From a bacterium (lineage in GTDB: Bacteria > Eremiobacterota > Eremiobacteria > Baltobacterales > Baltobacteraceae), in NCBI GenBank assembly GCA_021784715.1, contig JAJYHP010000057.1, positions 7,290-17,457 of the forward strand: a stretch of DNA of 10,168 nucleotides, read 5' to 3'. The translations under genes were made by a program, and so were the position numbers. Positions 1,120 to 10,168 of the stretch are shown piece by piece (the stretch's first letter is position 1; each line of letters begins with the position of its first letter). Under the pieces are notes generated by a model. That model made no database searches, was not told the DNA's origin, and saw nothing but the letters and a program-made list of their open reading frames with translations.

Positions 1120-1183
1120 TTAACCTTGTGAGGCAGTGAAAAGCCGGCTCGGGCCGAAGTCAAGACCTGCAAGGAAGCAGCTG

Positions 1184-3073
1184 ATGAATGGATTCTCGCT
1201 AGCGACGAATGTAAACTCCGCTTTCGCGCAGTTCAACCTGAATCTGCGGCAGGCCGCTTTGCAATCCGATGTAAGCAAGCTGTCTTCAGGGCTGCGGATT
1301 CAAAGCGCCGTTGACGACCCATCCGGGTTTGCGATCTCGCAAAACCTACAAGCCCAGGTCGCAGGCTACCAAGCCGCGATCGGCAACGTGCAGACGGCGC
1401 AGAATGCGACATTTGTCGCCGAGCAATCGCTTAGCACGATCACGGACATTCTTCAGCGCATTCGCTCGCTCGCGATCGAAGCGGCAAACGACGTTTCATC
1501 CGGTTTGGATCGCGCCGACATCCAGGCGGAGGTCAATCAACTTCGCGCGGAGATCGTCACAATCGTGCGGGATACAAACTTCAACGGGAAGCAATTACTC
1601 GACGGCTCCAACGCGCTCAATCTTGCCTTTAACGGCGCGCCGATTCTCCCGGGCGCGGCGTCACCCGGACCGACCTTGAATAATGCATCGTTCGAAATCC
1701 CAAACGTCGGCTCGGGGACTTTTAATGCATTCAAGTATGATCCAATCGGAGCGGGATGGACGTTCTCAACCTATTCCGGGATAACGGGTATAAATAGCGG
1801 TTTCTCGTCGGGAGCTCCGCCGCCGCCAAACGGCGTGCAAGAGGCCTTCATCCAAAGTTACAGCGGTTCGAACGGCACGATCACGCAAAATGTGACGTTG
1901 CAAGCAAACACGGTCTATACCGTCACGTTCGCGGCAACTCAACGAACAAATTACGAAAACGGCGGCGAGGTTGTTCTGGTGGAGCTCGACGGCCAAAACA
2001 TCGGGCGGGTCTTTGCAAGCAGTGGTACCTATTCATTCTACTCGTCCGCACCGATCGTTACGACCGCCGGCGTGCATACACTAAGTTTTGTCGGAGTCGA
2101 TCCAAACGGCCTGGACAACACGGCCTTTATCGACAACGTCAAAATCGTCGCACAACCGCTGCCGTACCCGGGGCCGGCGGTTCCCGATGGCAGCTTCGAA
2201 CAAGTGCCGATTAACGCCGGCTACACGTTTGGCGCATTTCAGTACGATCCAACGGGCACGCCCTGGTTTTTCACCGGCAATGCCGGCGTGTCGTCGAACG
2301 GTTCCGGCTTTACCTCGGGAAACCCAATCGCGCCCGACGGTGGCCAAGTTGGGCTCGTGCAGTTCACCGGATCGATGCAGGAAGATATCAGCGGCTTCCA
2401 ATCGGGCGTTACCTACGAACTTGCGTTGCTCGCGGCAAATCGCGTGAGTTCGCCCGGCGGGCAGACGCAGACAATTTCCATTTCCATCGATGGCCAGGCG
2501 ATCGCGACGATCACGCCGACGACTGCGAATTATCAGCAGTTCTACACGTCGTCGTTCGCGCCGGGCGCCGGAACCCACGTCTTAAGAATAACCGGGCTCG
2601 ATCCTTACGGAAACGACGAAACGGCCTTTATCGACCACCTGCAAATATTTGCCAGTAATGCCGCAACGACCCCCGAAACGTCGTTGGTCGTCCAGGACGG
2701 GGCGAGCGAAGGAAACCAAATTTTGCTCACGTTACCGGACGCGCGCCCGGTTTCGTTGGGCGTTCCATCGATCGATGTATCGTCGTTCGCAAGTGCCGAG
2801 ACAGCAATCGGGCAGATGGATGGCGCGCTCGGCATCTTAATGCAGGCGCGTGCACAGCTCGGTGCGCAAGTAGTCGCATTGGGAGAAAACGCGCAAAACG
2901 GCGCGCTGGCGGTCCTCAACGAGACGAATGCCCTATCGAGTATTCGCGACCTCAACGTTGGGAAAGCTGTTGGAAGGTTCACTCGCGATTCGGTGATGCA
3001 GCAAATCGCAACGTCGGTGCTCGCACAGGCAAATAACGATCCAAGGCTTGTGCTCGCTCTATTTAGGCCGTAG
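1184..3073 (+). CDS. fliC: Flagellin with two tandem jelly-roll-like domains in the variable region
   Basis: 629 residues. The start is the ATG at 1184, preceded by AAGGAAG (1171-1177) at 6-nt spacing. An in-frame GTG at 1136 would add 16 basic residues ahead of the usual flagellin N-terminus. Residues 1-145 are the conserved D0/D1 region (SKLSSGLRIQSAVDDPSGFA at 31-50, LQRIRSLAIEAAND at 90-103, NFNGKQLLDG at 132-141). Residues 515-629 are the C-terminal D1/D0 region, with SSIRDLNVGKAV and LAQANNDP. Between them sit two homologous units, about 161-326 and 328-491. Each starts near SFE, has an YDPxG...W strand, and ends DPxGxDxTAFIDxxxI. They resemble DUF642/CBM-like beta-sandwich domains of secreted proteins. 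The product should form the filament, with these domains facing outward. No other flagellar gene is nearby. The gene looks more AT-rich than its neighbours, so transfer is possible. Confidence 0.9.
   Translation: MNGFSLATNVNSAFAQFNLNLRQAALQSDVSKLSSGLRIQSAVDDPSGFAISQNLQAQVAGYQAAIGNVQTAQNATFVAEQSLSTITDILQRIRSLAIEAANDVSSGLDRADIQAEVNQLRAEIVTIVRDTNFNGKQLLDGSNALNLAFNGAPILPGAASPGPTLNNASFEIPNVGSGTFNAFKYDPIGAGWTFSTYSGITGINSGFSSGAPPPPNGVQEAFIQSYSGSNGTITQNVTLQANTVYTVTFAATQRTNYENGGEVVLVELDGQNIGRVFASSGTYSFYSSAPIVTTAGVHTLSFVGVDPNGLDNTAFIDNVKIVAQPLPYPGPAVPDGSFEQVPINAGYTFGAFQYDPTGTPWFFTGNAGVSSNGSGFTSGNPIAPDGGQVGLVQFTGSMQEDISGFQSGVTYELALLAANRVSSPGGQTQTISISIDGQAIATITPTTANYQQFYTSSFAPGAGTHVLRITGLDPYGNDETAFIDHLQIFASNAATTPETSLVVQDGASEGNQILLTLPDARPVSLGVPSIDVSSFASAETAIGQMDGALGILMQARAQLGAQVVALGENAQNGALAVLNETNALSSIRDLNVGKAVGRFTRDSVMQQIATSVLAQANNDPRLVLALFRP
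1664..2656 (+). repeat. Two tandem homologous domain-coding units inside the flagellin
   Basis: The flagellin codes two related units of about 163 residues (161-326 and 328-491, counted from the ATG at 1184). Both share PGPxxxxxSFE near the start, a GTF/YTF then AF(K/Q)YDP(I/T)G strand, SGF(S/T)SG then PxGxQ, YxxxxAAxR, (D)GQxI, and the ending G(V/L)DPxGxDxTAFIDxxxI. DNA identity is low, so this is an old duplication or two related imports rather than a recent copy. Confidence 0.8.
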
Positions 3074-4461: not shown

Positions 4462-4535
4462 GGTAAATCGTCACTCGATAGAGCGAAGGCGTTCGGAGAG
4501 CGATTCGAGGACGCGCGATGCAGGGCGCGAAGCAT

Positions 4536-6793
<2,258 letters not shown>

Positions 6794-8157: not shown

Positions 8158-8543
8158 GCTTGAAGGCGCTCCTCGCCGTCGCCCTCGGCGGCGGCATCGG
8201 GTCGGCATTACGATACGGCGTGAACTTCGTCGTCATCGCGCGCTTCGGCCCCGGCTTTCCGTTCGGTACGTTCCTCATTAATATTACCGGCAGTCTGCTG
8301 ATCGGGATCGTGGCGGAGCTCGCCGCGACCTCCTCGGTGGGGATGGCGCCCCTCCTGCGCCTGTTTCTCGCCGTCGGCGTGCTCGGCGGTTATACGACGT
8401 TCTCCACCTTCGCACTCGATACGGTCACGCTCGTCGGGGACCGAACGCTGGGGATGGCGACGCTCTACGTTCTCGCGAGCGTCGCGCTCGGTGTGGTTGC
8501 CGCTTTTGCCGGGCAGGTGCTCGTGCGCTTGGCGATGCGCTAA
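8154..8543 (+). CDS. crcB: Fluoride ion channel CrcB/Fluc
   Basis: 129 residues with four hydrophobic helices, the standard length. The protein dimerises in antiparallel orientation in the inner membrane and lets fluoride out of the cell. Family motifs are GGGIGSALRYG (12-22), GTFLINITGS (38-47) with pore Asn43, and VLGGYTTFSTF (76-86) whose Phe83 and Phe86 are the fluoride-lining Phe-box residues. These match the Asn and Phe residues known in characterised Fluc channels. A single gene is present, so a homodimer is expected rather than the two-gene heterodimer seen in some Gram-positives. The start codon sits in a 4-nt overlap with the DUF190 stop, with GGCGAGGG just ahead. Confidence 0.97.
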   Translation: MSLKALLAVALGGGIGSALRYGVNFVVIARFGPGFPFGTFLINITGSLLIGIVAELAATSSVGMAPLLRLFLAVGVLGGYTTFSTFALDTVTLVGDRTLGMATLYVLASVALGVVAAFAGQVLVRLAMR

Positions 8544-8668
8544 GCGCGCGCCTTTGCGAGCTCCTTACAGATCGGGAGCAACCCCGCATTTACCCGAGGA
8601 GTTATGCTGCGAGATTCCCGCCGAGGGGATTTCCGCACGTAGAATTTTTCGTTAAAAGAGGAGCATTC

Positions 8669-9040
8669 ATGCACGATCGGGATCTGATCGAACGCGTCGA
8701 AGCAATGAGCGCACAAGAGATCGACGGATTGCCCGTCGGCGTTATTACCTTAGGGCTCGACGGAAAAATACTTCGCTACAATCGTACCGAGGCGGAGATG
8801 GCGCGCCTCGACCAGCGCTCGCAGGTGGGGCGAAACTTCTTTACCGAGGTCGCACCCTGCACGGCGAATCCGGAGTTTCAAGGCCGCTTCACGACCCTGG
8901 CCGCAAAGACGAGCGGCGGCATCGAGACCTTCGACTACACCTTCCGCTTTGCTTGGGGCGCGCAGCGCGTGCATATTACGTTCGTGCGCAAGGCGGGTCG
9001 CGATGACGTCGACGTGCTCATCACGCGAATGTCTGCCTAA
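8669..9040 (+). CDS. pyp: Photoactive yellow protein homologue (single PAS domain)
   Basis: 123 residues against 125 in Halorhodospira PYP, alignable along the whole length. IDGLPVGVI, LDGKILRYNRTE and GRNFFTEVAPCTANPEF (54-70) match the PYP segments LDGLAFGAI, GDGNILQYNAAE and GKNFFKDVAPCTDSPEF. Tyr37, Glu41 and Cys64 fall on PYP Tyr42, Glu46 and Cys69 at a constant offset of 5. Cys69 carries the p-coumaroyl chromophore, and the other two hydrogen-bond its phenolate. PYP Thr50 and Arg52 are replaced by Ala45 and Leu47, and PYP Met100 by Trp96 after a one-residue insertion. AGAGGAG (8657-8663) fixes the start. It is a single gene with its own terminator. No tyrosine ammonia-lyase or coumarate ligase gene is in the window, so light sensing is unproven; a chromophore-free PAS sensor is the alternative. 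Confidence 0.8.
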   Translation: MHDRDLIERVEAMSAQEIDGLPVGVITLGLDGKILRYNRTEAEMARLDQRSQVGRNFFTEVAPCTANPEFQGRFTTLAAKTSGGIETFDYTFRFAWGAQRVHITFVRKAGRDDVDVLITRMSA

Positions 9041-9076
9041 AACCCCTGCGAATCGCCGAGTTTTGAGCAACATTTG

Positions 9077-9102
9077 AGGCCGCGCTCGCAGGAGCGCGGC
9101 CT
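9077..9102 (+). terminator. Hairpin terminator after the PYP-like gene
   Basis: AGGCCGCGCTC (9077-9087) and GAGCGCGGCCT (9092-9102) form a perfect 11-bp GC-rich stem with a GCAG loop. It lies 37 nt past the stop and is followed by TCCCTCT. The T tract is weak, but stem strength and location between two genes support termination. Confidence 0.7.
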
Positions 9103-9157
9103 TCCCTCTAGGACTTCCCGGGCAAGAATCATGACGCTCTTTTCGAGGAGGTTCTCG

Positions 9158-10168
9158 TTGTCTCGCACATCCGTACGCTGGGCGCTCGCCGCCGCAGCAC
9201 TTTTTGCACTTAGCCTTCCGTCGTTCGCGCGCGCCGCGGGCGCCGCGAGCCCCCCTCCCGCCAAGAGCGCGGTGAAGGCCACGCCGAAGCCGACGCCCAC
9301 CCCGACCCCGCCGCCGCCCTACAAGCAGATGCATTGGCGGGAGATCGGACCGGCCGCAGGCGGCGGACGCGTGACCTCGGTCGCCGGATCGGCGACGAAC
9401 GTGAAGCTCTACTTTGTGGGCTCCGCCGGCGGCGGCGTCTGGAAAACGATCAACGGCGGCTTCACGTGGACGCCCGTGTTCGCGAATCAAAAGGTCGCGG
9501 CGATCGGCGCGGTCACCATCGATCCCAGTAACAATAATATCGTCTGGGTCGGAACCGGCGAGAGCAATCCTCGCAACGATGTCAGTTACGGCGACGGTCT
9601 TTATAAGTCGACGAACGGCGGCATGACTTGGAAGCGGGTCGGCCTCAAGGGCGTGCGTTCGATCTCTCGCATCGTCGTCGATCCCAAAGACGGCAACCAC
9701 GTTGTTGTCGCTGCCTTCGGTGACCCGTATCGCAACAGCGTTCATCGCGGCGTCTACGTCACGTTCGACGGCGGCAAAACATGGAAGAAGACGCTCTATC
9801 TTGCGCCCGATAGCGGCGCGAGCGATCTTGCGATGGTGCCGAGCGATCCGAACGTCATCTATGCCGGCATGTGGGAGTTTCGCCGTAAACCCTGGACCTT
9901 CCGTAGCGGCGGTCCGAACGACGGGCTCTATAAATCGACCGACGGCGGCAAGAGCTGGACGAAACTCGTCGGCAATGGTTTACCGACCGGAATTACCGGG
10001 CGCATCGGCCTCGCGGTCTCGCAGAGCGATCCGAATTATGTCTACGCGCTGATCGAAGCGGCGAACGGTATCCTTTGGCGCAGCGAGAACGCCGGCAAGA
10101 CTTGGAAGATGGTCAGCGATAATACGCTCGTCGACCAACGTCCCTTCTATTTCACGCACATCGCCGTC
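9158..10168 (+). CDS. Exported BNR/sortilin-like beta-propeller protein (partial, 5' end)
   Basis: The first 337 codons are present and the frame is open to the window edge. The TTG at 9158 is chosen because GAGGAGG (9145-9151) lies 6 nt upstream; an in-frame ATG at 9131 would place that site inside the gene. A Sec signal (MSRTSVRW, hydrophobic to about 22, ARA-AG) is followed by a Pro/Thr linker (TPKPTPTPTPPPP, 42-54). The propeller then begins: WREIGPAAGGGRV (60-71), GGGVWK, and five Asp-box repeats at TINGGFTW (97-104), STNGGMTW (151-158), TFDGGKTW (202-209), STDGGKSW (260-267) and SENAGKTW (309-316). Blocks such as VWVGTGESNPRNDVSYGDG and MWEFRRKPWTF are typical of the large (about 1000-residue) VPS10/BNR-repeat proteins of unknown function in Acidobacteria and relatives. 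Catalytic activity cannot be judged; sialidase or GH74 activity should not be assumed. Confidence 0.9.
   Translation, partial: MSRTSVRWALAAAALFALSLPSFARAAGAASPPPAKSAVKATPKPTPTPTPPPPYKQMHWREIGPAAGGGRVTSVAGSATNVKLYFVGSAGGGVWKTINGGFTWTPVFANQKVAAIGAVTIDPSNNNIVWVGTGESNPRNDVSYGDGLYKSTNGGMTWKRVGLKGVRSISRIVVDPKDGNHVVVAAFGDPYRNSVHRGVYVTFDGGKTWKKTLYLAPDSGASDLAMVPSDPNVIYAGMWEFRRKPWTFRSGGPNDGLYKSTDGGKSWTKLVGNGLPTGITGRIGLAVSQSDPNYVYALIEAANGILWRSENAGKTWKMVSDNTLVDQRPFYFTHIAV

Follow-up and report, generated by a model that had tools for sequence, protein, structure and literature searches.

The window, by which we mean the whole stretch of 10,168 nucleotides analyzed here, carries near its 3′ end a gene for a photoactive yellow protein (PYP) homologue. 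The open reading frame (8669–9040, + strand) opens with ATG, encodes 123 amino acids, and closes with TAA. It is preceded by a ribosome-binding site, GAGGAG (8658–8663, +), read directly from the sequence, and the motif GGAGCAT ahead of the gene is common to all nine aligned loci. Profile, PDB, tree, and fold evidence agree that this is a genuine, conserved PYP homologue from Candidatus Eremiobacterota (Vulcanimicrobiota). The nearest genome match is DX1.bin104 (L001), which is 99% identical, with Candidatus Eremiobacterota MAGs among the next ones; all whole-genome statements below rest on the genomes of such relatives, not on the window's own. Across 36 pairs of nine orthologues, the median dN/dS is 0.044 (range 0.010–0.072), an approximate figure given that dS is often close to 1 and that few changes separate the window–L001 pair, and this low ratio indicates strong purifying selection on the protein.

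The surroundings of pyp are highly conserved. In 15 orthologous loci, crcB lies upstream in 14 and a DUF190 gene in 13, while a VPS10/BNR-repeat protein gene follows pyp in all 15. In the window, the latter gene starts at 9158 and runs off the end (9158–10168, +); its GAGGAGG suggests that translation begins at a TTG, and its N-terminus predicts secretion. Most relatives have two consecutive large VPS10/BNR-repeat genes after pyp (9158–10168 in the window; 10406–16784 in L001). Neither the window nor any of the 15 orthologous loci has a signaling gene next to pyp, and a motif scan of L001–L014 returned a single kinase-like box, in L013 at a distance of some 9 kb. The protein is free-standing, with no output among the neighbors of its gene, as originally predicted. 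We also considered a pyp–crcB–DUF190 operon as functional evidence, but it carries no information in view of a gap of ~130 bases and the general synteny. Elsewhere, the window contains a TPP riboswitch (Rfam) ahead of thiC at 4535–4641, and at 1136–3073 a 645-residue flagellin with HpiC1-like/DUF642 matches between its N- and C-terminal flagellin domains.

Several lines of evidence place the protein closer to PYP than to other PAS domains. It matches the photo_yellow profile TIGR02373 with an E-value of 3.8e-24 (85.1 bits), compared to 2.6e-5 for Pfam PAS_4, and every one of its 33 PDB matches at E ≤ 1e-3 belongs to PYP, Ppr-PYP, or the PYP-derived FAST. An AlphaFold2 model (mean pLDDT 88.5) was computed from alignment A2, which comprises the window protein and 49 of its 100 database hits. 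The closest structure to this model found by Foldseek is the PYP entry 2qj7 (TM 0.89, rmsd 1.9); chains of PYP, Ppr-PYP, or FAST fill ranks 1–40 (E 3.3e-12 to 3.3e-8), and no other PAS domain comes before rank 41 (E 3.7e-7). On profile scores and fold ranking, we reject a non-photoactive PAS domain. The phylogenetic tree used below (hereafter the careful tree), whose rows include no non-PYP PAS protein, places the window protein among PYPs. The profile search and tree that had been suggested as checks therefore give no grouping with non-photoactive PAS families, and the end-to-end homology holds. The score nevertheless falls below the curated cut-off of the TIGR02373 equivalog (143.05 bits), as does every match in five related genomes, so the protein is not filed as that equivalog, a model that covers only ~20% of the PYPs found by BLAST according to Xing et al. 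2022 (PMC9664959). It belongs instead to the wider PYP family defined by Cys69 (Xing 2022; Dohmen 2025).

The alignment equates Tyr37, Glu41, and Cys64 of the window protein with Tyr42, Glu46, and Cys69 of PYP, which bears out their predicted retention. Cys64, the predicted site of chromophore attachment (codon 8858–8860, +), is the only cysteine in the protein. In PYP numbering, Phe62, Val66–Pro68, and Phe96 are kept as well. These residues are well conserved across the phylum: Tyr42 is found in 43 of 43 tree rows, Glu46 in 42 of 43, and Cys69 in 44 of 45 PYP-domain rows (the 43 tree rows and L132 with it, L133 without). L133, a PYP-like domain of genome G084, carries Trp where Cys69 would be. 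Ala45 and Leu47 occupy the positions of Thr50 and Arg52, as the original prediction stated, but the unusual pocket that it read from them does not stand, as Ala50 and Leu52 are the consensus among 984 published PYPs (Dohmen et al. 2025, PMC12826048); the same paper gives 435–465 nm for four PYPs with Ala50. Among our 126 tabulated tree rows, Ala50 occurs in 84 and Leu52 in 49. The real peculiarity is Trp96 (codon 8954–8956, +), which aligns with Met100 of PYP, offset by a one-residue insertion in the 80s loop.

The predicted replacement of Met100 by Trp is likewise correct, but it is a trait of a whole clade rather than of this protein. Trp100 and Gly101 (PYP numbering, used from here on) are invariant in all 50 sequences of A2. 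Of the hits left out of A2 (P0009, P0033, P0043, P0047, P0054, and P0055–P0100), P0009, P0033, P0043, and P0047 also have Trp100, and P0054 lacks a residue there. In the tabulated rows, Trp100 occurs in 36 of 126, namely 28 of 43 from genomes of the phylum and 8 of 83 others, the latter eight being database proteins within the same clade; seven duplicate gene copies, the second domain of L065, the incomplete L132, and L133 were dropped before tabulation. Met100 is a minority state (17 of 126) in this sample, which is biased towards relatives of the window protein. The careful tree was obtained from an earlier one of 127 rows by removing 24 (long branches and near duplicates) and adding ten sequences; with 113 rows and few columns (121), many of its forks are unsettled. 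The Trp100 proteins nonetheless form one 36-row clade (support 99/96), nested in a 75-row clade (100/99) without Halorhodospira, Ppr, or Burkholderiales proteins. All 33 tabulated rows of the smaller clade have Trp100, as do, by eye, the remaining P0106–P0108 (P0106 and P0107 with Ala rather than Gly at 101); none of the 90 tabulated rows outside the clade has it, and the sister group has Phe100 (5/5).

Compared to the Halorhodospira halophila protein (2phy/1nwz), which it resembles in end-to-end alignment, fold, the Tyr42/Glu46/Cys69 set, and being free-standing, the window protein is ~32% identical, has Trp for Met100 and Gly for Thr101, lacks Trp119 in the alignment, and carries one extra residue in the 80s loop. 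It has the Cys69 PYP domain in common with the clades A, B, and C described in PMC9664959, and it keeps Phe92 and Phe96. As in clade C, Trp119 is lost, but clade C is described there as keeping Met100 and losing Phe92/96, unlike the window protein. Membership in clade C is unsupported, as the presumed C-type proteins L176 and L178 lie on the other side of the tree; these are plasmid proteins annotated as 'phosphonate transporter', taken as C-type from the misannotation mentioned in PMC9664959. The PDB matches listed include Met100 variants with His, Asp, Glu, Gln, Asn, and Lys in the F96oCNF background, according to entry titles, and no Met100-to-Trp structure; nor did literature searches find a result for an M100W mutant. 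Met100 mutants with other substitutions recover slowly. Xing et al. 2022 (PMC9664959) describe Met100 as a proposed catalyst of re-isomerization, with the pCA–Met100 distance needing consideration.

PYP in this phylum is not limited to one copy per genome. A2 matches 25 of 149 genomes at E 1e-3, 23 of which we count as PYP-bearing; the half-length matches of ~20 bits within kinase-like open reading frames in G035 and G039 were rejected, and G084 is counted although it has only a domain without Cys69. Five genomes carry two copies, G119 and G099 four, and G016 and G094 six, one of those in G094 being incomplete; phylum membership here follows the collection's assignment for G001, while NCBI records that agree with G094 and G099 in contig size are titled Rhodospirillales. 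G119, a single contig of 3,508,363 bases with pufLM, has one copy of the Trp100 type (L110) among its four. A second Trp100 PYP, 54–55% identical, is found in G001, G002, G004, G005, and G014. In L019 (8421–10357), the stop codon of a glycerol-kinase-type FGGY gene marks where the frame of such a second PYP begins, and two FAD-linked oxidoreductase genes lie ahead of the FGGY gene; the PYP gene is situated between the latter and a PfkB-type kinase gene, an arrangement that by eye recurs in L115. Most PYPs of the phylum form groups of their own on the careful tree, with L134 (G016) clearly elsewhere. The phylum label requires 11 changes, a figure inflated by unlabeled database proteins within the phylum's groups, and seven of these are forced by starred branches.

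Pigment supply is a point against the assignment as a photoreceptor. The lyase family PF00221 is present in all 16 genomes of a first set and in 16 of 20 of a second. Among the 23 PYP-bearing genomes, 22 have an ammonia-lyase (in two pieces in G015) and G094 has none; L153, a second, divergent lyase of G091, lacks the MIO Ala-Ser-Gly and was not counted. The motif following the YG..TGFG segment is Ser-His in all 22 lyases, which we take to mark histidine ammonia-lyase; two lyases encoded next to spirochaete pyp genes have Tyr-His instead. The two lyases tested, from G001 and G119, score 668 and 667 bits with the hutH model (cut-off 539) and reach none of the cut-offs set for tyrosine ammonia-lyase models. 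The spirochaete lyases score 371 and 402 bits with hutH, and as they too are below every tyrosine-lyase cut-off, the models do not prove their substrate. Urocanase is present in 22 of the 23 genomes, and in 20 of 22, all except G004 and G016, it shares a contig with the lyase at a distance of no more than ~5 kb. We thus recognized no tyrosine-type ammonia-lyase among the 23 PYP-bearing relatives.

A similar picture emerges for the ligase. None of the 149 genomes, mostly MAGs of unknown completeness, exceeds the cut-off of the 4-coumarate-CoA ligase model TIGR02372 (334.7 bits). Weak matches occur in 139 of 149 and equally in 12 of 14 controls, and the only near-full-length match is in G016 (302 bits), followed by 67 bits for the next best. 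Because a positive control, the pyp-adjacent ligase of Caballeronia, reaches 291 bits and is also under the cut-off, what matters is the drop from 300 to 67 bits. The window's own clade has no PYP-type ligase. The absence of pigment genes repeats in the 15 orthologue-bearing genomes (G001–G014 and G072), which in this respect differ from H. halophila, and in the single-contig G119. The original prediction had made the assignment depend on a genomic route to p-coumaroyl-CoA; such a route is missing insofar as relatives have no recognized tyrosine-type lyase or PYP-type ligase, yet a gene resembling those for aromatic-acid-CoA ligases does occur. G001 has three AMP-binding genes; of the two that we classified, one is benzoate-CoA-ligase-like (366 bits, cut-off 375). 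In G119, an acyl-CoA ligase gene whose best match is FadD7 (433 bits, cut-off 650) lies ~60 bases 5′ of the Trp100-type PYP gene. Because neither enzyme was recognized in the orthologue-bearing genomes, formation of the holo-protein is not assured.

This leaves room for a PYP fold and cysteine retained without p-coumarate in the cell, binding another acyl thioester, a free ligand, or nothing, and sensing a metabolite or thiol chemistry instead of light. The Ser-His motif in all 22 lyases, the nearby urocanase in 20 of 22, and the finding of a near-full-length PYP-type ligase match in one of 149 genomes, with none in the window's clade, are all in keeping with this, as is the location of Trp100 within the 94–101 segment, changes in which alter ligand use in FAST, an engineered PYP derivative. 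We nevertheless consider it unlikely, if worth serious attention, since Tyr42, Glu46, Cys69, Phe62, Val66–Pro68, and Phe96 are kept as expected for p-coumarate, the nearest relative has the benzoate-CoA-ligase-like gene, and sister PYPs adjoin bch genes. Moreover, absence of pigment genes nearby is common, with 5% of predicted pyp operons holding a lyase gene and 32% a ligase gene (PMC12826048). Alternatively, the hut histidine ammonia-lyase could also accept tyrosine, in which case the genome would make its own p-coumarate. Nearly all these genomes offer just one lyase as a candidate, and PMC9664959 names histidine and phenylalanine ammonia-lyase as possible alternative sources; we still regard such a dual role as most unlikely, given that the G001 and G119 enzymes pass hutH and fail the tyrosine ammonia-lyase models, while the lyases beside spirochaete pyp genes fall under the hutH cut-off and have Tyr-His in place of Ser-His. 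Our best reading is that p-coumarate is taken up or made by an unrecognized route.

A different kind of alternative, that pyp is functionally tied to the secreted VPS10/BNR protein, for example by light control through an intergenic element, arises from the sequence between the two genes. Just 3′ of pyp lies a spaced repeat, TTGA-N6-TTTGA (9063–9077, +), which is present in 14 of 15 loci including the window and missing in L010; 8 of 20 genomes contain a single copy of the pattern each. It is followed by a GC-rich hairpin (9076–9103, +), seen in single-sequence folds, and ~40 intergenic bases (9061–9103 in the window) are nearly identical in nine loci. At greater distance, most loci still fold into a hairpin, although the bases of its stem differ, single-sequence folds being the weaker kind of evidence. 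The hairpin matches no Rfam family at the gathering cut-off, with chance-level matches otherwise, and RNAalifold found no consensus structure in the short alignment A4, perhaps because the changed stems are misaligned. A sigma-70 promoter scan returned nothing, and a scan for T-rich terminators did not report the hairpin, which is possibly a terminator or a leader element. The conservation of both elements and the presence of the BNR gene on the same strand after pyp in 15 of 15 loci, even in L009 where crcB and DUF190 are missing, would suit a functional tie. Yet crcB (14/15) and DUF190 (13/15) are nearly as constant, so the adjacency may be plain synteny. The hairpin could be a terminator that separates the genes, the RNAalifold result speaks against a conserved element, and by eye the phylum's other PYP lineages have no BNR-like neighbor. 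We therefore consider such a tie very unlikely.

Having weighed these alternatives, we return to a PYP-type photoreceptor, for which the neighborhoods of sister PYPs offer hints of possible outputs. L129 is a PYP-PAS-GGDEF-EAL fusion, a GGDEF gene overlaps pyp in L134, and a GGDEF-EAL gene adjoins it in L118. A methyl-accepting chemotaxis protein (MCP) gene adjoins pyp in L120, where it is cut by the contig end, and lies near it in L111 and L121. The MCP-domain match near the PYP of L111 (about 8293–9204; G119:C1:2820370-2820906) has one in-frame TAG. Crp-type regulators are found beside pyp in L111 and L117, and AhpC/TSA-type genes ahead of it in L113 and L131. A bchZ-like gene adjoins pyp in L112 and L124 and is near it in L121, with scores of 437, 449, and 370 bits, respectively, below the BchZ cut-off of 529; L112 also passes the bchG and bchP models. 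Five of the 23 PYP-bearing genomes have reaction-centre genes, among them all three with a bchZ-like neighbor; none of G001–G014 has them, and these carry 2–9 MCP-domain matches each. Together with the flagellin in the window, the MCP matches and the lack of reaction-centre genes make a motile, non-phototrophic host with a trans-acting PYP a reasonable supposition.

We think it fairly probable that the gene product is a photoreceptor of the PYP type, free-standing and native to Candidatus Eremiobacterota, that works as follows; a function in light sensing is likely. By analogy with the known PYP mechanism, p-coumarate would join Cys64 as a thioester and be isomerized by blue light, Glu41 would give up its proton, and partial unfolding would yield a signaling state read by a partner encoded elsewhere. 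Dark recovery is probably slow with Trp100, because Met100 is held to speed re-isomerization of the chromophore; a protein of this kind would report accumulated light. More speculatively, the partner might be a chemotaxis or c-di-GMP protein, as the neighbors of sister PYPs hint, and p-coumarate might come from outside the cell, with a general aromatic-acid-CoA ligase activating it. A bolder version, which seems to us quite improbable, is that the whole Trp100 branch is specific to the phylum, has become uncoupled from pigment synthesis, and is loaded only by hydroxycinnamates imported from outside or by a different acyl thioester; each copy, in genomes with as many as six PYPs, would then report light and compound together through long-lived signaling states.

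That this phylum has PYPs was published before (PMC12826048, PMC9758169). The notion that PYPs are known from few lineages is outdated, as PMC12826048 lists Candidatus Eremiobacterota among many PYP-bearing phyla. A homologue from the same phylum as the window's, WPS_26150, is the one PYP gene named for Vulcanimicrobium alpinus WC8-2 in the account of PMC9758169; this organism moves toward blue light, which speaks for the photoreceptor reading. The main text of PMC9664959 contains neither 'Eremio' nor 'metagenom', and our searches of the open literature did not find the Trp100 clade, the copy numbers in the phylum, or the missing pigment genes. The present case is of interest because nature has replaced Met100 by Trp throughout a clade, at a position considered to govern PYP recovery, because PYPs have multiplied here in a lineage outside the well-studied groups, and because it is puzzling that the chromophore cysteine is conserved where the known chromophore genes are missing. 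Since several PYP lineages hold together within one phylum, it also has a bearing on the published proposal of a Myxococcota origin of PYP with later transfer to other phyla (PMC9664959).

Some further observations concern PYPs in other settings. One 3.7-kb Thermoanaerobaculia contig (L063) carries three PYP domains in separate open frames. A viral or phage origin of the window gene was rejected, as the single protein has no match in viral contigs or phages; searching via A2 matched two IMG/VR PYPs, which are 41 and 35% identical. The IMG/VR contigs L080 and L081, of 51 and 58 kb, encode distant PYPs that keep Cys69 and are possibly host DNA.
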